NCBI GenBank assembly: GCA_003228175.2
Contig: QGNQ01000009.1
Span: forward strand, 1 to 64,000
Length of the DNA: 64,000 nt
From: Chloroflexota bacterium
Lineage (GTDB): Bacteria; Chloroflexota; Dehalococcoidia; Bin125
Direction of reading: 5' to 3'
Shown piece after piece: positions 51,654-61,991 of this stretch. The position numbers and the translations under genes were made by a program. Under the pieces are notes generated by a model. It was given only the letters and a program-made list of their open reading frames with translations, did no database searches and had not been told where the DNA came from. The stretch's first letter is position 1, and each line of letters begins with the position of its first letter.

Positions 51654-51893
51654 ATGCGCAGCATCCACCCATCATTCTCCGCCGGACCACGCGCGCTGAT
51701 CATGACCGCCCTGATCACGACCACTCTGATCATGACGGCCCTACTCACCATGGCGGTGGCCATCCTCGCCGCGCCGCCGGTACGCGCCGCCCCCGCCCCG
51801 CGATCCTCGCCCTCACCCCAAGCACGGGCCCCATCGGCGGCGGCGCCAGCGTCATCATCTCCGGCACGAATTTCACCGGCACGACCGGCGTGA
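51654..51893 (+). CDS. Signal-peptide fragment of the frameshifted secreted protein
   Basis: The 79-aa ORF starts with a clear export signal: MRSIHPSFSAGPRALIMTAL..., a long hydrophobic core (TALLTMAVAILAA) and an Ala-rich cleavage region (PVRAAPAP), with AAGGAG 8 nt before the ATG. After that it runs out of frame into low-complexity Ser/Pro/Ala. The correct continuation (ILALTPSTGPIGGG, a TIG/IPT domain) is in the -1 frame, so this is the N-terminus of the next feature separated by a frameshift near 51790-51800, at a run of five C. Confidence 0.7.
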   Translation: MRSIHPSFSAGPRALIMTALITTTLIMTALLTMAVAILAAPPVRAAPAPRSSPSPQARAPSAAAPASSSPARISPARPA

Positions 51894-54088
51894 CCTTCGG
51901 CGGCGTCGCCGCCGCGTTCGCCGAAGACAACGATTCCCAGGTCACCGCCACGGCGCCCGTCTTCGGCGCAGCGAGCGTCGTCGATGTCGTCGTCACCACG
52001 GCCGACGGCCCCAGCGCCAACACCCCCACGGACGACTTCACCTACTTTCAGCCCACCGTGCAGATCATCGAGACGGGTGCTGGCACCGCCGTTACCGAGG
52101 GCGGCCTCATTGACTCCTACTCCGTCCTCCCGACCAGCCTGCCCACCGCGACGGTCACTGTCACCATCTTCGACACCCCCCAGATCGACGCCACCCCCAA
52201 CACCCTCACCTTCACGCCCGGCGATTGGTTCACCGCCCAAGTCGTCACCGTGACCGCCATCGACGACGCGCTGATCGAGGGCACGCACGCCTCCGTGATC
52301 ACGCACACCGTGGCCGGCGGCGGCTTCACCGGCGCCGCCATCTCCCCTGTCCTCGTCACCATCACCGACAACGAACTCGGCACCCCCATCGTCACGCAAG
52401 TCGGCGGATCCACCGCCGTCACAGAGGGCGGCGTCACGGACTCCATCACGGTCAGCCTGGCCCAGCAGCCCAGCACGACCGTGACCGTCACCATCACCGG
52501 CGACGCCCAAGTCGCGGCCTCGCCCACCCTCCTCAGTTTCACCCCGTCCTCCTGGAACACCCCCCAGACGGTCATCGTCAGCGCTATCGACGACGGCGTC
52601 GTGGAGGGCGCCCACACCGGCTTTCTCTCTGTCATCCTCACCGGCGGTGTCGGCATCGTGCCGCCATCGCTCGTGACCGTCACCATCTCCGACAACGACG
52701 CGCGCCGGGTGATCGTCTCCGCCGGCGGCGCGGAGACGATCACCTTCACCCCCATCGACGACGCCCAGATCAGCCGCGGCAGTCGGGACGCAAACTTCGG
52801 GGACGAGTCACTCTTCACGGTCGACGACGATCCCCGCCGCGACGGGCTCCTGCGCTTCGCCGTCACCGGCCTGGCCCAGCGCAGCGTCTCCCGCGTGATC
52901 CTGCGCCTCTACGTCCGCGACCAATCGAACTCCGGCGGCAAGGCCTTCGCCACAACCTCCTCCACCTGGAACGAGCAGAGCGTCACCTGGAACAACGCGC
53001 CCGGCTTCGCCGGCTCCGCGATCGACGAGATCGGATCGGTCTCGGACAACACCTGGGTCGAGTTCAACCTCACGACCTTCGTGACCGGCGACGGAATCGT
53101 CAGCCTGCGGCTCCGCTCGGATTCCGCGAACCGCGTGGACTACGCCGCCAAAGAATTCGGCGGCGGCTTCGCCCCCCAGCTCCTGATCGACGTGGGCGGC
53201 AGCGCCAGCCTCGCGATCAACGAGGGCGGGCCCGCGGGCTCCTACACCGTCGTGCTCAGCAGCGTCCCCGCCGGCGTCGCCACCGTCAGCGTCGTCCCGG
53301 ACCAGGAACTGTCCGTCGCGCCGCCGCAACTCCAATTCACGGTGAGCAACTGGAACCTGCCCCAGACCGTGTTCATGAGCGCCATCGATGACGACGACAT
53401 CGAAGGCGCACACATCGGGACCATCCAGCACAGCGTCAGCGGCGGCGGCTACGCCGGCGTCGTCGTGGCCAGCGTCTCCGCGCAGATCACCGACAACGAC
53501 GCCGCCGGCGTGCGCATCTCCGAGTCGGGCGGCGCCACCAGCACCAACGAAGACGGTCTCACCGACACCTACACCGTTGTCCTGCTGGGCCGGCCCAGCG
53601 GCACAGTCACCATCACCATCGAGCCGGACGGCGAGCTGCGCACCAACCTCAGCCAGATCACCTTCACGACGGCCAACTGGAACATTCCCCAGACCGTCCG
53701 CGTGGAGGCCATGGACGACAGCGCCGATGAGGGCACGCACACGGGGCGCATCTCACACAGCGCCTTCGGCGGTGGCTTCAACGCCGTCTCGATCGCGGAC
53801 GTCATCGTCACCATCACCGACAACGACGAAATCGTCGTGGAAGTGATCACCCTCAGCCGCGGCCTCACGCTCGTCGGCTGGTTCGGCGTTCCCACCACGT
53901 CCCGGGCCATCATTGAAAGCAATGCGCGCATCATCGCCATCTGGTTCTGGGACGACGGCGACCAAGCCTGGCTGCTCGACAGCCCCAACCTGCCCGAAGT
54001 CCTGCGCGTCTTCATCCGCATCTCGCGCGGCGATGGCTTCTTCGTCGACAGCACCAGCGTCACCTTCCTTGAGGTGCCGCTCGCATAG
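51890..54088 (+). CDS. Secreted Calx-beta/TIG/DNRLRE repeat protein (body of a frameshifted gene)
   Basis: A 732-residue body whose frame is open from about 51803. Order: TIG/IPT domain (TGVTFGGVAAAFAEDNDSQVTATAP), two Calx-beta-like repeats (~60-270; hallmark AVTEGGLIDSYSV...TVTAIDD...EGTH...VTITDNE), then a DNRLRE/CBM96-like domain (~285-430; DDAQISRGSRDANFGDE, SSTWNEQSVTWNNAP). Two further Calx-beta repeats follow (~435-645), and a C-terminal domain ending LVGWFGVPTTSRAIIESNARIIAIW. The repeats are beta-sandwich, Ca-binding-type modules of extracellular proteins. The start codon at 51890 is nominal; the true N-terminus is the signal fragment upstream. Confidence 0.82.
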   Translation: MTFGGVAAAFAEDNDSQVTATAPVFGAASVVDVVVTTADGPSANTPTDDFTYFQPTVQIIETGAGTAVTEGGLIDSYSVLPTSLPTATVTVTIFDTPQIDATPNTLTFTPGDWFTAQVVTVTAIDDALIEGTHASVITHTVAGGGFTGAAISPVLVTITDNELGTPIVTQVGGSTAVTEGGVTDSITVSLAQQPSTTVTVTITGDAQVAASPTLLSFTPSSWNTPQTVIVSAIDDGVVEGAHTGFLSVILTGGVGIVPPSLVTVTISDNDARRVIVSAGGAETITFTPIDDAQISRGSRDANFGDESLFTVDDDPRRDGLLRFAVTGLAQRSVSRVILRLYVRDQSNSGGKAFATTSSTWNEQSVTWNNAPGFAGSAIDEIGSVSDNTWVEFNLTTFVTGDGIVSLRLRSDSANRVDYAAKEFGGGFAPQLLIDVGGSASLAINEGGPAGSYTVVLSSVPAGVATVSVVPDQELSVAPPQLQFTVSNWNLPQTVFMSAIDDDDIEGAHIGTIQHSVSGGGYAGVVVASVSAQITDNDAAGVRISESGGATSTNEDGLTDTYTVVLLGRPSGTVTITIEPDGELRTNLSQITFTTANWNIPQTVRVEAMDDSADEGTHTGRISHSAFGGGFNAVSIADVIVTITDNDEIVVEVITLSRGLTLVGWFGVPTTSRAIIESNARIIAIWFWDDGDQAWLLDSPNLPEVLRVFIRISRGDGFFVDSTSVTFLEVPLA

Positions 54089-55501: not shown

Positions 55502-56122
55502 CTAGCCGCGCGGCGAAAGCGGCCCCGTCGCGAAGTCCGTCGACTCGGCATCCTCCGGATCCGGCGGCTGGTAGCCCGGCGGCGGAATCCGCAGCTCCTG
55601 GCCAATCCGCAGCGCATTGGGATTACTCAGCGCGTTGTAGGCGACCAACGCATCCGTCGTCACCGCGAAACGCACCGCAATCTGATGCAGCACATCCCCC
55701 GCGATGACCACGTAGACCTGGCCCAGCTGCGGCGCCGCGTCTGCCGACGCCGCGTCCCCCGCCGCAATGGCGGCGGCGGGCTCCGGGTCGGCCGCGACGG
55801 TCGCCGGCTCCGACGTCGTCAGGACCGTATCGAGCGACTGCGTCGCCTCAGACACGACCGTCGTGATCGAGCTCGCCGCGCTGTCGTTGGTATCCCGCAG
55901 CACGCCGAAGGACGTCAGCATCAGCACCGCGAAGAGGATCGGAATCGCGATCACCAACGACAGCAGGAAACCTAGCATCGGCCCGGACCAGACGGTTTCA
56001 TCCGGCGGCGGCCCGTCGGGACCAATCGCGTCAAGGCCACTGAGGCGGAAGGGCAGCGCGCCCCGACCGTTACCGGCGCCGGTTGGCTTCGCCTTCCATG
56101 ATGGGCTCGTCGATGTAGACAT
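55502..56122 (-). CDS. LysM-domain membrane-anchored protein
   Basis: A 206-residue protein: cytoplasmic N-terminus, one membrane helix ([21 protein letters not shown], ~residues 49-70), a Ser/Thr/Ala-rich linker, and a LysM domain ([28 protein letters not shown]...[11 protein letters not shown], ~135-185). LysM binds peptidoglycan-type glycans, so it probably sits at the cell surface. Its 5' end overlaps the zinc-ribbon gene by 53 nt in another frame, implying coupled translation, though a shorter form is possible. Confidence 0.8.
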
Positions 56123-56282
56123 CGCCGTTCCGAATCTTCAGGTTGTAGCCACAGTGCGCATTCGTGCACACCCAGGCCTTGTACAAAATCGATGCCCCCT
56201 GGCTGCCGAAGTCGGACAGCGGCACCAAGTGCCCCGTGTCACAACGTTGGCAGGGCGGGAACCCAAGTCCCACGTCTTCCAC
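56070..56282 (-). CDS. Small zinc-ribbon protein
   Basis: A 70-residue protein with two Cys pairs: FPPCQRCDTGHL near the N-terminus and [18 protein letters not shown] in the middle, a CxxC...CxxxxC zinc-ribbon. The acidic/basic tail ends EGEANRRR. The function is unknown; such proteins can be transcription or RNA-binding accessories. GTG start. It overlaps the LysM gene by 53 nt and is divergent from the PDZ gene. Confidence 0.7.
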   Translation of the reverse strand: MEDVGLGFPPCQRCDTGHLVPLSDFGSQGASILYKAWVCTNAHCGYNLKIRNGDVYIDEPIMEGEANRRR

Positions 56283-56362
56283 CCATCACCCCCTTCACCC
56301 CCGCACGACGATCAAACGCCGAGAAAGGTTCCCCCAGCGATCCCGTCACGCTGGCGCGTTCC

Positions 56363-56405
56363 TATTCTATCCCGGAGATCGGGCAAGCGCCGCTTACATT
56401 ATTCT
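56363..56405. promoter_or_regulatory. AT-rich divergent promoter region
   Basis: An unusually AT-rich patch in the 265-nt gap (TTACATTATTCTTACAC) with TATTCT boxes at 56363-56368 and 56400-56405 on the plus strand and TAGAAT on the minus strand. It probably drives the PDZ gene rightwards and the zinc-ribbon/LysM genes leftwards. Confidence 0.4.
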
Positions 56406-56533
56406 TACACACCGATCACACGGAGATACCGTCGGCAGCGCATCCTGAGTCATGATCGCGGGCTGGTCTCATCATCGCGATCGTCCGGTGGGGCATGCAT
56501 AGGGGAGACGACCGATCTGATGGAGAGAAACTC

Positions 56534-56551
56534 ATGAACCCAATCTCATGA
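56534..56551 (+). CDS. Five-codon upstream ORF overlapping the PDZ gene start
   Basis: ATG AAC CCA ATC TCA TGA: the stop overlaps the PDZ start codon (ATGA). The GGAGAG site at 56522 is spaced 6 nt from this ATG but 20 nt from the PDZ ATG, so ribosomes may load here and reinitiate. It could also be chance from a local CTCATGAAC duplication. Confidence 0.35.
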   Translation: MNPIS

Positions 56552-57786
56552 ACACTGACTTCCTGCGCCGACCCTGGGCGAGCCTGTCCATGCTCGCGAT
56601 CGCCATCACCGCCATTGGCCTATCAATCGCCGCGCTGATCATCGCCTTGGACGACGACACGCCGCCCGGCCTCAACAACGACGGCGGCAGCCTTGCCGGC
56701 CTCGTCGGCCCCGCGGACCGAACCCCCGATCTCGACACCAACCTCGACCGCCTCGAAGAGAAGGACGCCGCGGCGCCGGCCCGCCGCCAACCGCCCGCTC
56801 CGGTCGCCGCCGTCGCTCGCGCCGCGACAGAGGCCGTCACGACCGCCGCCGATCTGCTCAACGGCGCCCGGCCCCTGCTCGGCCTCCTGGCCCAGCGGGT
56901 CGATGACCTCCTCGTCGTCCGCGCCGTGCTGCCGGGCAGCCCCGCCGACCTTGCCGGCATTCAGCGAGTCGACCACCTCCTCTCGATCAACGACGCGCCC
57001 GTCCTTTCCCTGCCCGAGGTGCATGACATCCTCAGCGCGCTCGAATCGGGCGACACGGTGCGCATCGGCATCGAGCGCGATGGCGCCCCCCAGACCGTCG
57101 AAGTCGAACTCCGCGCCTTCGACCCGGGCGACGCCTTCACCCGGCCAGATGGCGCCCGGCCAGACTTCCGAGGTAGCGCGCCCACGCTGGGACTCCGCGT
57201 CGAATCCAGCGACGATGGCCTGACGGTCACCGGCGTCATGCCCGGCAGCGGCGCAGACGCCGACGGCCTCGCTGAGGGCGACCTCCTGCGTGCGATCAAC
57301 GGCGCCCCCGCGCCCGACACCGAAGCGGTCCGCGCCGCCCTCCGCGAGATCGAGCCGGGCGCAACCGTCACGCTGACCGTCGAGCGCGATGGCGCGACGC
57401 TGGACCTCGCCGTGGCAGTCGGCGAGGGGCTCCGGTCGCTCCCCGGTCCCGGTTTCGCCCGCCCCAACTCTGGTGACGATGAGGGCCGCCGCGGCCCCTT
57501 CGGTCGCGTTGGCATCCCCTTCTCAGGCTTCGGCGGCTCCTTCGACAGCTCTGACCTCTTCGCCGACGGCGAGTTCCGCGTCCTGATCGGTGCGATCACC
57601 GCCCTCAGCAGCAGCGAAATCAGCGTGAGCGGCGGGACGGCCGTCACGATCACCGAAGACACCCGGCAGGCAGGCGAGCTGAACGTCGGCGACCGTGTGT
57701 TCGTCGTCGCCCGCGACGGCGTCGCCCGGCTGATCGTTCCGGCGCCGGACTTCGCGGCATTCACAGGCCCTCCCGGCGACGCCTAA
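56548..57786 (+). CDS. Membrane-anchored tandem PDZ-domain protein
   Basis: A 412-residue protein: one N-terminal membrane anchor (LSMLAIAITAIGLSIAALIIAL), a disordered Ala/Pro linker, two PDZ domains (~105-190: LLVVRAVLPGSPADLAGIQRVDHLLSIND; ~205-295: LTVTGVMPGSGADADGLAEGDLLRAING), and a C-terminal beta-rich domain (VLIGAITALSSSEISVSGGTAVTI). It resembles the PDZ half of HtrA-like proteases but has no protease domain, so it may be a substrate-binding or chaperone adaptor at the outside of the membrane. Confidence 0.88.
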   Translation: MNTDFLRRPWASLSMLAIAITAIGLSIAALIIALDDDTPPGLNNDGGSLAGLVGPADRTPDLDTNLDRLEEKDAAAPARRQPPAPVAAVARAATEAVTTAADLLNGARPLLGLLAQRVDDLLVVRAVLPGSPADLAGIQRVDHLLSINDAPVLSLPEVHDILSALESGDTVRIGIERDGAPQTVEVELRAFDPGDAFTRPDGARPDFRGSAPTLGLRVESSDDGLTVTGVMPGSGADADGLAEGDLLRAINGAPAPDTEAVRAALREIEPGATVTLTVERDGATLDLAVAVGEGLRSLPGPGFARPNSGDDEGRRGPFGRVGIPFSGFGGSFDSSDLFADGEFRVLIGAITALSSSEISVSGGTAVTITEDTRQAGELNVGDRVFVVARDGVARLIVPAPDFAAFTGPPGDA

Positions 57787-57833
57787 GGCCGGACTCGGTC
57801 CCACCTCCGCCGACGGGACGCGCGTGCGCCCCA

Positions 57834-57839
57834 TAGACT
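57834..57839 (+). promoter_or_regulatory. -10 element TAGACT of a probable leaderless transcript
   Basis: TAGACT ends 6 nt before ATG 57846, with no Shine-Dalgarno; the clearest example of the leaderless layout in this window. Confidence 0.6.
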
Positions 57840-57845
57840 GGAGTC

Positions 57846-59186
57846 ATGTCGGACCCGCTCACCGGTCGCCAGCGGCAGGTCGCCGGGCTCGTCGCCGCGG
57901 GACTCACCAATCGTGAAGTCGCAGAGCAGCTGGGCATCTCGCGCGACGGCGTCAAGTACCACGTCTCGGAAATCCTCAGCCGCCTGGGCGTCTCCTCGCG
58001 TGACTCGGTTCGCGAAGCCCTCTGGGGCCCCGCCGACGGCGAAGCCCAGCCAAACGAGACCGGCCGCACTGCCGCCCAGCCCGGCGAAGTCGACTTCGCC
58101 AAGCACCTGCTCGACGCGATGCGCGGCTCCCTCCTGCAGCGCGTGCTGCGTATCGCCACCGAGACCGGGGTGATCCCCGCTCTGCGTGCGCTCCCGCCCG
58201 CCCGCGCCAGCCGCATCGCCGCCGCCGCGGACATCGACGTGCGCTACGCCCGCTCCATCCTCTCCGCCCTCGCCGCGCACCAAGTCGTCGACTACCGCGC
58301 CGCCACCCAGCAGTTCCGGCTCTCGCCCCCCCATCGATCGCTGCTCACCCCGGAGCGCCCCGACTCGTTCCTGGAGCTGATCGACAGCACCACCCCGCGC
58401 GACCCCGATGACGACCTCCTCATCGCGCAGATCCGCCACGATCAGGGCATCCGCTTGGAGGCCGGCATGGCCAACGAGTGGGCGAATCTCATCCACATCC
58501 TGCCCCGGCCCGCGCACGGGCTCGCCGCCGCCTTCAGCGCCGCCCCGCAACTGGCCCAATCGCTAGAGCAGGGCATCAGCGTCGGCGAGGCCGGCTCCGG
58601 CCGCGGGCGCCTGCTGATTGAGCTGGCGCGCACGTACCCGCACAGCCGTTTCAGCGGCTACGACCTCAACCCCACCGCCGTCGAGCTCGCCACTGCCGAC
58701 GCCGACCACGCCGGCGTCGCGAACTGCGAATTCATCGTCGCCGATATCACCCAGCACCCCGTCCAGCACAACCTCATGCTGGCCTTCGGGATGCTGCACG
58801 ACACCCCCAACCCCGCGAAGATCGTCGCCGCCATCGCCCGCATCATCGCCCCCCAAGGCCTCTTCATCGCCACCGAGATCGCCGCCTCCAGCCGGCTCGA
58901 GCGCAACCTGGGCCTGCCCCTCATCGAGGTCATGTACGACCTCTCGCTCATGCACTGCGTGCCCCACTCCGTGGCCTCCGGCGGCGAGGGCCTGGGCGCC
59001 CTCTGGGGCCAAGAAGCGACGCGCGCACTGCTGGAAGCGGCGGGGCTCAGCGTCCAGATCGTGCGCTCAGAGTCGGACGCGTTCCACAACTACTTCATCG
59101 CCACACCGCAGGCCGGCATCGGTCCAGCCGACCCGTCCGGCGCGGTGCGCCGGACGGGCAGCGGCGGCCAGAAAGGTGCGTCCTGA
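57846..59186 (+). CDS. LuxR/GerE-type HTH fused to a SAM-dependent methyltransferase
   Basis: A 446-residue fusion. Residues 1-60 are a complete LuxR/GerE HTH (LTGRQRQVAGLVAAGLTNREVAEQLGISRDGVKYHVSEIL). After a short linker come a winged-helix-like dimerisation part (~75-190; LQRVLRIATETGVIPALRAL) and a class I methyltransferase fold (~235-435). SAM motif I is SVGEAGSGRGRLLIELA, then FSGYDLNPTAVELA and LMLAFGMLHDTPNP. Motif I has an extra Ala compared with GxGxG. The overall type is Rv2258c-like. The gene is followed 2 nt later by a stand-alone paralogue. Confidence 0.88.
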   Translation: MSDPLTGRQRQVAGLVAAGLTNREVAEQLGISRDGVKYHVSEILSRLGVSSRDSVREALWGPADGEAQPNETGRTAAQPGEVDFAKHLLDAMRGSLLQRVLRIATETGVIPALRALPPARASRIAAAADIDVRYARSILSALAAHQVVDYRAATQQFRLSPPHRSLLTPERPDSFLELIDSTTPRDPDDDLLIAQIRHDQGIRLEAGMANEWANLIHILPRPAHGLAAAFSAAPQLAQSLEQGISVGEAGSGRGRLLIELARTYPHSRFSGYDLNPTAVELATADADHAGVANCEFIVADITQHPVQHNLMLAFGMLHDTPNPAKIVAAIARIIAPQGLFIATEIAASSRLERNLGLPLIEVMYDLSLMHCVPHSVASGGEGLGALWGQEATRALLEAAGLSVQIVRSESDAFHNYFIATPQAGIGPADPSGAVRRTGSGGQKGAS

Positions 59187-59188
59187 CC

Positions 59189-60256
59189 ATGGCATCGATC
59201 AACAAAGAGAAGCTGCACGAATCAACGATGGCGTTGCTGGGCCATCTCAACGGCCTCAGCACGGCCATCGCGATCCAACACGGCGTCGAGCTTGGCCTCT
59301 TCGACGCGCTCAGCCAGGGCGGCCCGGCCAGCAGCGGCGAGCTCGCCGATCGGACCGGGCTCAGCGAGCGCTGGGTCCGCGAGTGGCTGCACCTGCAGGC
59401 CGCGGCCGGAGTCGTGGAGCACGAGAACGCCCACCGATTCTCGCTCGCACCGGAGTCGGCGCTGCTCCTGGTCGACGAATCCACCCCCGCCTCGATGGTC
59501 GGGATGTTCGCCACCCTGTCGGCGCTGATCGACGGCTTCGAGCACCTGCCGGAGGCCATGCGCACCGGCCTGGGCCAGCCCTACGACGGCCACGGCGACG
59601 CCGGCGCCAATGCCATCGAGCGGGGGACCGCACCCTGGATCCCCGTCATGATCGACGAGGCGCTGCCGGCCCTGGAGGGGGTCGTGGGCAAGCTGGAAGC
59701 GGGTGGCCACGCCGCCGACATCGGCTGCGGCTCGGGCGCCCGCACGCTCGCCATGGCCCAGGCCTTCCCCAACAGCACCTGGACCGGCTACGACACGTCC
59801 CAGCACGCCATCGCGCGATCCCAGGCCAAACTCGCCGACGCCCCCAGCACGACCAACCTCAGCTTCAAGAACCCCCTGCAGGAGCCCGTGCCCAGCGACG
59901 GCTCACTGGACTTCGTCAGCTTCTGCGACGTCCTCCACGACGCCACCCGCCCGGACCAGCTTCTCGAAATCGCGCGCAAGGCCGTCAAGCCGGACGGGAC
60001 GGTGCTGGTGATAGACATCGCGCAGGCGCCCGCGCTCGTCGACAAGCTGACGCACCCGGCGGCGCCGCTGTTCTATGGCTTCTCGCTGACTTTCTGCATG
60101 TCGTCCAGCGCCGCCACCAAGGACGGCGCCGCCCTGGGCACCCTGGGCCTGGACGCGCCCAAGCTGCAGGAACTCGCCGGCGCCGCGGGCTTCACCCGCG
60201 TCCGGCAGATGGAGGTTGAGGATCCCTTCAACGCCTACTACGAGCTCAGGCCGTAG
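59189..60256 (+). CDS. Class I SAM-dependent methyltransferase (Rv2258c-like)
   Basis: A 355-residue methyltransferase with an N-terminal winged-helix domain (LSTAIAIQHGVELGLFDALSQG, LSERWVREWLHLQAAAGVVEH) and a catalytic domain with motif I ADIGCGSGARTLAMAQAF, post-I WTGYDTSQHAIAR and motif IV DFVSFCDVLHDATRP. The C-terminus (VRQMEVEDPFNAYYELRP) parallels the end of the upstream fusion (SDAFHNYFIATP), so the two are tandem paralogues in one operon. The substrate is unknown. Confidence 0.9.
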   Translation: MASINKEKLHESTMALLGHLNGLSTAIAIQHGVELGLFDALSQGGPASSGELADRTGLSERWVREWLHLQAAAGVVEHENAHRFSLAPESALLLVDESTPASMVGMFATLSALIDGFEHLPEAMRTGLGQPYDGHGDAGANAIERGTAPWIPVMIDEALPALEGVVGKLEAGGHAADIGCGSGARTLAMAQAFPNSTWTGYDTSQHAIARSQAKLADAPSTTNLSFKNPLQEPVPSDGSLDFVSFCDVLHDATRPDQLLEIARKAVKPDGTVLVIDIAQAPALVDKLTHPAAPLFYGFSLTFCMSSSAATKDGAALGTLGLDAPKLQELAGAAGFTRVRQMEVEDPFNAYYELRP

Positions 60257-60268
60257 GGACAGTCGAGA

Positions 60269-61882
60269 CTACTCGGCCGACCACTGCGGCTGCTTGTACA
60301 GGAAGTACTCGTACGCGTCCGACAGCGCGATCCACGACGCCTCGATCACGTCCGTCGACGAGCCCACCGTGTGCCAGATGTGCTCCCCGTCCGACGACTC
60401 AATCAGCACCCGCACCCCGGCCTCCGCGCCGCCCGCCGAATCGAGGATGCGCACCTTGTAGTCGCGCAGATGCACCGTCGCGATCGCCGGGTAGGGCTGC
60501 GTCAGCCCGCGGCGGATCGACGCGTCCATCGCCGACACCGGCCCGTTGCCGTCCGCCGCCGTCTGGAAGATCTCCTCACCGACCGCGATTTTCGTCATCG
60601 CCTCCGCCTGCATGTCGGAGTGCGTGGTCGGGTCGCCGTCGTCCTGATGCCGGCGCCGGTTCACGATCAGGAAGTCCTCCAGATCGAACGGCGGTTGGTA
60701 GTCGGCTCGCAGCCGCAGCGCCAGCAGCTCGAACGAGGCCTCCGCGCCCTCGTACTGGAATCCCCGGCTCTCCATCTGCTTGACGCGATCCAGCAGGGCC
60801 CGGTTCTCCTCCTTGCTGAGCGGCAAATCCAGCCCTCGCTCCGCCAGCTTCACGGAGATGTTGCGCTGCCCCGACAGCTCGCTGACCAAGATCCGACGCC
60901 CATTCCCCACGACATCCGGATCGATGTGCTGGTACGTGTCGGGATCCTTCACGATCGCCGCCACGTGATAGCCCGCCTTGTGCGCGAACGCGCTCGCGCC
61001 CACGTAGGGCGCTTGCCCGTTCAGCGGCAAGTTCGCCAACTCCGCGACGAACAGGCTGGTGTTGGTCAGCTCCGCCAGCTGCGTATCGCTGACCACGCGG
61101 CGATCCATCTTCAGCTGCAGATTGGCGACGACGGTGGACAGGTTGGCGTTGCCGCAGCGCTCGCCGTAGCCGTTCACGCAACCCTGCACCTGCGTCACGC
61201 CCGCCTCCACCGCCGCCAGGCTGTTCCCGACGGCCAGGCCGCAGTCGTCGTGGCAGTGGATACCCAATGCCACGTCGGGCAGCGCCGCCCGCACCGCCGC
61301 GATCGCCCGCCTCAGGTCCGTTGTCATTGCGCCGCCGTTCGTGTCGCACAGGACCAGGTACTGTGCGCCTGCGCGCGCCGCCGTGCGCAGCGCTTGCAGC
61401 GCGTAGTCGGCGTCCTCGCGAAAGCCATCGAAGAAATGCTCCGCGTCGAAATGCACCTCGCGGTCCTGCGCGCGGATGTGCGACACCGACTCCCGGATCA
61501 TCGACAGGTTCTCCTCCTGCGAGGTCCCCAGCGCCACCCGCACCTGATACGCGCTGGCCTTGCCCACCAGCGTCACCACCGGCGTCTCCGCGCCCAGCAG
61601 CGCCTGCATGTTGAAATCACTCGCCGTATCGGAGCCGGGCTTGCGGGTGCCCCCAAATGCGACCAGTTTCGCGTGCGCCAGGGGTCGTTCCTGCATCCGC
61701 TCGAAGAACGCCTTGTCCTTCTCGTTGCTGCCGGGGAAGCCGCCCTCCACGTAGTGCACGCCCAGCGCGTCCAGCCGGTGCGCGATCGCCACCTTGTCGT
61801 CCAGAGAGAAGGCAATGCCCTCCATCTGCGAACCGTCGCGCAGCAGCGTGTCGTAGAGGACAACGGGCGGGGATTCAGCCAT
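60269..61882 (-). CDS. cimA: Citramalate synthase
   Basis: A 537-residue enzyme of the DRE-TIM (HMGL-like) family. DTLLRDGSQMEGIAFSLDDK holds the catalytic Arg-Asp, then VEGGFPGSNEKDKAFFERM, HCHDDCGLAVGNSLAAVEAGVTQVQGCVNGYGERCGNANL with metal His residues, and a C-terminal LeuA allosteric domain (ATVHLRDYKVRILDSAGGAEAG). The length and the FPGSNEKD segment mark the long CimA type, which condenses pyruvate and acetyl-CoA to (R)-citramalate for isoleucine. ATG 61882 has GGAGCG upstream. It is near the leu genes, which catalyse the following steps. Confidence 0.92.
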   Translation of the reverse strand: MAESPPVVLYDTLLRDGSQMEGIAFSLDDKVAIAHRLDALGVHYVEGGFPGSNEKDKAFFERMQERPLAHAKLVAFGGTRKPGSDTASDFNMQALLGAETPVVTLVGKASAYQVRVALGTSQEENLSMIRESVSHIRAQDREVHFDAEHFFDGFREDADYALQALRTAARAGAQYLVLCDTNGGAMTTDLRRAIAAVRAALPDVALGIHCHDDCGLAVGNSLAAVEAGVTQVQGCVNGYGERCGNANLSTVVANLQLKMDRRVVSDTQLAELTNTSLFVAELANLPLNGQAPYVGASAFAHKAGYHVAAIVKDPDTYQHIDPDVVGNGRRILVSELSGQRNISVKLAERGLDLPLSKEENRALLDRVKQMESRGFQYEGAEASFELLALRLRADYQPPFDLEDFLIVNRRRHQDDGDPTTHSDMQAEAMTKIAVGEEIFQTAADGNGPVSAMDASIRRGLTQPYPAIATVHLRDYKVRILDSAGGAEAGVRVLIESSDGEHIWHTVGSSTDVIEASWIALSDAYEYFLYKQPQWSAE

Positions 61883-61991
61883 ATCGCGCTCCAAGCGAAA
61901 GCGCCGGGGCCGGCGGCGCGGTCCGGATGAGTCGGGCGGGACGGTCGTGGGAGAGGGCCGAGAGGCACGACGCCGCTAGGCGGCAATCGAA

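Follow-up and report, generated by a model that had tools for sequence, protein, structure and literature searches.

Architecture of the locus

We analyzed a 64-kb stretch of DNA from a Chloroflexota bacterium, referred to here as the window. Around the gene of interest the order in the window is tRNA-Pro, a LysM gene (−), a PDZ gene (+), a gene fusing a GerE HTH to an Rv2258c-like methyltransferase (+), a stand-alone methyltransferase (+), and then cimA, leuB and leuD (all −). Coordinates are collected in Table 1. An Rfam scan of the window gave one tRNA and nothing else.

Table 1. Features of the fusion gene and its surroundings in the window, with the evidence for each assignment.
Feature	Position	Strand	Residues	Evidence
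Fusion gene, GerE HTH + Rv2258c-like methyltransferase	57846..59186	+	446 aa	ORF, Pfam, sister genome, dN/dS, model
GerE/LuxR-type HTH	57852..58004	+	3–53	Pfam PF00196, E 7e-14; dN/dS; model
Flexible linker	58026..58079	+	61–78	low confidence in model, poorly conserved
Rv2258c-like N-terminal winged-helix/dimerisation domain	58095..58349	+	84–168	Pfam HTH_65 and Dimerisation, alignment
Class I methyltransferase (Rossmann) domain	58569..59108	+	242–421	Pfam, alignment, Foldseek
Motif I, EAGSGRG, acidic-x-G-x-G-x-G intact	58587..58607	+	248–254	alignment to 5f8c and 36 family members
Candidate -10 element TAGACT, 6 nt before ATG	57834..57839	+		consensus match only; the sister genome has TAAGCT equally far from its ATG
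Stand-alone TnmJ-side Rv2258c-like methyltransferase	59189..60256	+	355 aa	Pfam, tree, sister-locus comparison
Protein with two PDZ domains (context, not mechanism)	56548..57786	+		Pfam; absent here in the sister genome, adjoins cimA in genus g5
Citramalate synthase cimA, conserved flank	60269..61894	−		TIGR00977, 631 bits (cut-off 450)

HTH and methyltransferase form one selected protein

The first-pass annotation had described a complete GerE/LuxR HTH ahead of an Rv2258c-like methyltransferase in one chain. This description holds: the gene is a single unbroken ORF, and Pfam finds both parts in it. The GerE match reached 51.6 bits against a cut-off of 23.5, i.e., the HTH is intact. The AlphaFold model of the fusion (mean pLDDT 86) predicts the HTH fold with high confidence, with helices at residues 7–17, 22–29, 33–47 and 52–60 corresponding to the four GerE helices. 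It also predicts a disordered linker at about residues 61–78 and a complete methyltransferase. The Rv2258c-like region spans about residues 84–421 and contains HTH_65 ("Rv2258c-like winged HTH", residues 102–168, E 2e-10) and Methyltransf_31 (residues 242–352, E 2e-18). The fusion thus has the make-up of the Rv2258c-like class, HTH_65 followed by a Rossmann domain with motif I and an acidic residue after strand 2. Pfam matched neither a receiver nor an autoinducer-binding domain in the fusion. A Foldseek search with the model returned Rv2258c on top, both apo (5f8c) and SAH-bound (5f8e), with a whole-chain rmsd of 16–20 Å that leaves the relative domain placement uncertain.

The same fusion, 77–79% identical from residue 1 to at least residue 420, is also encoded by another genome of the genus (G019; L007 = L029; contig JAPOXB010000068.1, labelled Chloroflexi MAG), called the sister genome below. 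Comparing the two genes by the Nei-Gojobori method, we obtained a dN/dS of 0.22 for the entire ORF, about 0.27 for both the linker (dN 0.227, dS 0.85) and the Rossmann part (dN 0.141, dS 0.52), and about 0.11 for the HTH (dN 0.093, dS 0.84; 85% identity), which is the most constrained segment of the fusion in this two-genome comparison. From the low ratio in the HTH we conclude that it is a translated and selected piece of the fusion protein. A mis-joined ORF, with the HTH belonging to a separate gene, is ruled out by the conservation in the second genome and by selective constraint that spans the join, and the fusion is a real single protein.

The HTH might still be an inert leftover of the fusion event, carried along by an ordinary methyltransferase. 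A rare, young fusion confined to one genus would suit this explanation, but the HTH is the best-conserved segment and folds with high confidence in the model, and we hold an inert HTH to be very unlikely.

Distribution of the fusion

The fusion appears to be rare and young and has so far been found in two genomes of one genus (2 of 20 genomes searched in the order). Matches to the methyltransferase part were common in 393 sampled genomes from the class and 400 from the phylum, and none outside the two genomes spanned the HTH. Moreover, in the ORFs checked upstream of the methyltransferase at 29 class and family loci no GerE domain was found, and some 36 further Rv2258c-type enzymes inspected across the phylum were all stand-alone. 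The genome samples of order, class and phylum are not exhaustive, and beyond the phylum only plasmid records were searched; none of the 254 matches there spanned 80% of the fusion. A search of the available literature gave no description of a LuxR-methyltransferase fusion.

The HTH resembles that of N-terminal GerE membrane proteins

With the HTH alone as query, we found two kinds of matches in the class, i.e., C-terminal GerE domains of the response-regulator type and N-terminal GerE domains. The fusion HTH scored best against the N-terminal GerE proteins and not against the C-terminal GerE of response regulators. Its recognition-helix stretch reads DGVKYH. The G at this position is found in 29 of 43 N-terminal GerE domains (fusion counted) and in 0 of 22 C-terminal ones, where a T precedes the VK in 19 of 22. 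In nearly all proteins with the N-terminal GerE, a single transmembrane helix is predicted no more than 90 residues past the HTH, followed by an outer domain, which was a PD40 propeller or M23+LysM in three of ten proteins scanned.

The N-terminal GerE membrane regulators of the class (e.g. L059, L065, L105, L106) thus share with the fusion the GerE subtype, its N-terminal position and a subsequent output or sensor part that is not a receiver. They differ in having a transmembrane helix and extracytoplasmic domains, whereas the fusion is soluble and carries a methyltransferase. NarL/LuxR regulators have the GerE HTH in common with the fusion, but in the fusion it is N-terminal and comes without a receiver or autoinducer-binding domain. 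The fusion hence looks like an N-terminal GerE type in which a soluble methyltransferase has replaced membrane anchor and outer domain, although a domain of 60 residues gives no firm tree.

The N-terminal GerE membrane proteins are themselves an expanded, class-wide set, in which a single transmembrane helix is combined with diverse extracytoplasmic domains (PD40 propeller, LysM+M23 and others). Members are L059, L060, L065, L088–L095 and L102–L107, from G128 and other class genomes; G128 has 22 HTH matches at E <1e-10, many of them clustered. These proteins look like ToxR/CadC-style regulators built on GerE. In a survey of transmembrane regulators, LuxR and GerE are absent from the main text (PMC10269533).

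The methyltransferase part retains the SAM site and has diverged elsewhere

Rv2258c of Mycobacterium tuberculosis is the closest solved structure to the C-terminal 340 residues of the fusion (E 1.6e-42). Both have the winged-helix and Rossmann layout, motif I and the His-Asp pair in register, and the ASSxLExNxGxPL and SLMHC stretches. Rv2258c differs in that it has no GerE domain, and the fusion in that it has lost two family motifs. The REWL motif has become RSIL in the present genome and RAIL in the sister genome, and GGGVPY has become DQGIRL and GEGVRL, respectively.

Motif I of the fusion had at first been read as deviating, i.e., degenerate. Alignment in register with Rv2258c and its relatives rules this out: Rv2258c has VADFGCGSGRAV where the fusion has VGEAGSGRGRLL, and the acidic-x-G-x-G-x-G pattern is intact. 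Compared with the family, the usual Cys is replaced by Ser and the Asp by Glu, with E248 as acidic residue and G250, G252 and G254 kept. Among 39 aligned sequences, the fusion also retains D273 (the acidic residue after strand 2, for the SAM ribose), H318, D319, P323, G338, S367 and C371, of which H318-D319 is the invariant His-Asp of the family. With motif I and the other SAM-site residues kept, SAM binding by the fusion is therefore to be expected.

Of 82 columns conserved among the stand-alone relatives, 34 differ in both fusions, with the REWL and GGGVPY changes among them. The two fusions group together in the maximum-likelihood tree as a single clade, whose stem measures 2.99 changes per site versus a median end branch of 0.36. 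As judged from alignment and tree, the methyltransferase part has diverged heavily after the fusion with its SAM residues retained; the long stem branch is a sign of change and not proof of a loss of catalysis. A DNA methyltransferase with a targeting HTH was ruled out, as the (D/N/S)PP(Y/F/W) motif is absent and the equivalent position reads FGMLHD.

The adjacent stand-alone methyltransferase is not a conserved partner

As the first-pass annotation stated, the next gene encodes a methyltransferase without the HTH. Its ORF begins 2 nt past the stop of the fusion and has HTH_65 and methyltransferase domains but no GerE by Pfam. The two proteins are paralogues in the wide sense only: they share 24–27% identity and belong to different subfamilies, and in the methyltransferase tree the fusion branches with Rv2258c and the stand-alone enzyme with TnmJ. 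In the maximum-likelihood tree the latter groups with a stand-alone enzyme from another genus of the family (support 100/98), and its closest solved relative is TnmJ (PDB 8g5s, E 6e-49). An origin by tandem duplication is ruled out by these different subfamilies.

In the sister genome the gene order is LysM (−), fusion (+), cimA (−), and the stops of fusion and cimA overlap. The stand-alone enzyme is absent from this locus, and no close paralogue was found elsewhere in that incomplete genome. G018 represents the other genus whose cimA is most similar. Its PDZ fragments lie at two contig ends, one by LysM and tRNA-Pro and one by cimA, and the interval from PDZ to cimA contains no fusion and no stand-alone enzyme. 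Genus g5 has a relative of the stand-alone enzyme without any fusion. G018 and G019 are 79–87% complete, such that absence from the locus is surer than absence elsewhere in the genome. A conserved pairing of fusion and stand-alone enzyme is thus ruled out by the sister genome, where the fusion adjoins cimA alone, and by the next genus. From LysM to cimA (55502–60269) the gene content varies, with PDZ only in G018, the fusion only in G019, and PDZ, fusion and methyltransferase in the present genome; we hence conclude that the adjacent enzyme was probably added in this genome.

It had been suggested that the fusion acts as a regulator by forming a heterodimer with this neighbor. The genes are on the same strand and, at a distance of 2 nt, likely co-transcribed in this genome. 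However, the fusion of the sister genome (77% identical) has no such paralogue at its locus and no close one elsewhere in that genome, the supposed partners are of different subfamilies, and genus g5 has the relative of one without the other. We regard such a heterodimer as very unlikely.

The G018 PDZ copy adjoining cimA (L122:1-220) has an in-frame TAG at the contig end and differs from the copy that ends the LysM contig, which may reflect mixed strains or a faulty assembly.

A possible leaderless-type start at the fusion

The sequence before the start codon of the fusion is TAGACT-GGAGTC-ATG in the window versus TAAGCT-GGAGGC-ATG in the sister genome. Both genomes thus have a conserved TANNNT hexamer ending 6 nt from the ATG, which suggests that transcription may start at the fusion itself. 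With such a leaderless-type start at its own ATG, the HTH would be the true N-terminus of the protein. A pattern scan of the window found TANNNT-N6-ATG five times versus 2.4 expected, and the pattern suggests that leaderless transcripts may be present in this organism. The sites are at 57834, 3076, 28214, 34212(−) and 48804(−), and at each of them the ATG is the first or an in-frame start of a long ORF. No sigma-70 consensus promoter was found at the locus, and the upstream regions of the fusion in the two genomes, compared for an operator, shared only the -10-like element and no convincing palindrome.

Possible function of the fusion protein

We propose, with about an even chance of being right, that the fusion is a soluble one-component regulator that would use the methyltransferase fold as a sensor of SAM/SAH or another ligand. 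Its N-terminal GerE HTH would bind DNA, as the intact domain and its constraint suggest, and its C-terminal half would be a SAM methyltransferase fold of the Rv2258c type. The N-terminal winged-helix domain, as judged from the family, may dimerise the chain, and two GerE domains could then meet a two-fold symmetric site. SAM or SAH, possibly also a small molecule bound in the altered substrate pocket, would change the dimer and hence DNA binding. For such a regulator speak the strongest constraint on the HTH, its affiliation with the subtype of N-terminal one-component regulators, and a methyltransferase part that has diverged with the SAM residues kept. A regulator with a repurposed enzyme fold, as proposed in the first-pass annotation, hence is still the best reading, although the reasoning that motif I is broken was wrong. 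Against it, the intact SAM site and the invariant His-Asp suit an active enzyme equally well; moreover, no operator was found, no SAM-cycle gene lies near the fusion, and the fusion is present in two genomes only.

The fusion could also be a bifunctional trigger enzyme, i.e., an active small-molecule methyltransferase that binds DNA by its HTH and tunes its own or its neighbor's expression to substrate or SAM supply. The retained glycine motif with its acidic residue, Asp273 and H318-D319 agree with this, as does the purifying selection on the Rossmann part, and in the sister genome, where the fusion adjoins only cimA, no separate target enzyme would be needed. The losses of the substrate-side GGGVPY and the N-terminal REWL motifs, the very long stem branch and the lack of a biosynthetic cluster or evident substrate around the fusion speak against it, and we consider a bifunctional enzyme rather unlikely. 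The evidence thus favors the regulator over the bifunctional enzyme-regulator; sequence cannot separate the two because an intact SAM site serves both.

The first-pass annotation knew of no characterised system with this pairing, which overlooks SahR. In SahR a methyltransferase-like domain probably lies C-terminal to the HTH in one chain. SahR is the nearest working analogue of the fusion. It is an ArsR-family regulator that responds to SAH (PMC4239095). SahR has an ArsR winged HTH and targets SAM-cycle genes, whereas the HTH of the fusion is GerE, and for this reason the fusion is not a SahR. A GerE regulator with a methyltransferase-fold sensor for SAM/SAH balance or a methylatable metabolite would mean that the SahR principle arose a second time, independently and with another HTH, possibly when a soluble Rv2258c-like enzyme replaced the membrane anchor and outer domain of an N-terminal GerE regulator; we put this forward tentatively, as somewhat less than an even prospect. 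If true, it would be a second, unrelated route from methyltransferase to gene switch. As the fusion is young, with free-standing relatives known and the changed positions listed, it lends itself to testing whether a newly captured enzyme had its SAM site turned into a sensor.

Other open reading frames near the fusion

A small ORF of about 70 residues with a GTG start (56070–56282, −), missing from the ORF list of the window, overlaps the start of the LysM gene, has zinc-ribbon cysteines (CQRC...CTNAHCGY) and is strongly conserved in the sister genome. At 51890–54088 (+), an ORF of 732 residues contains repeats of the form EGGxxDxYxVxL...NWxxPQTVxVxAxDDxxxEGxHxGxIxH, Calx-beta-like by resemblance.
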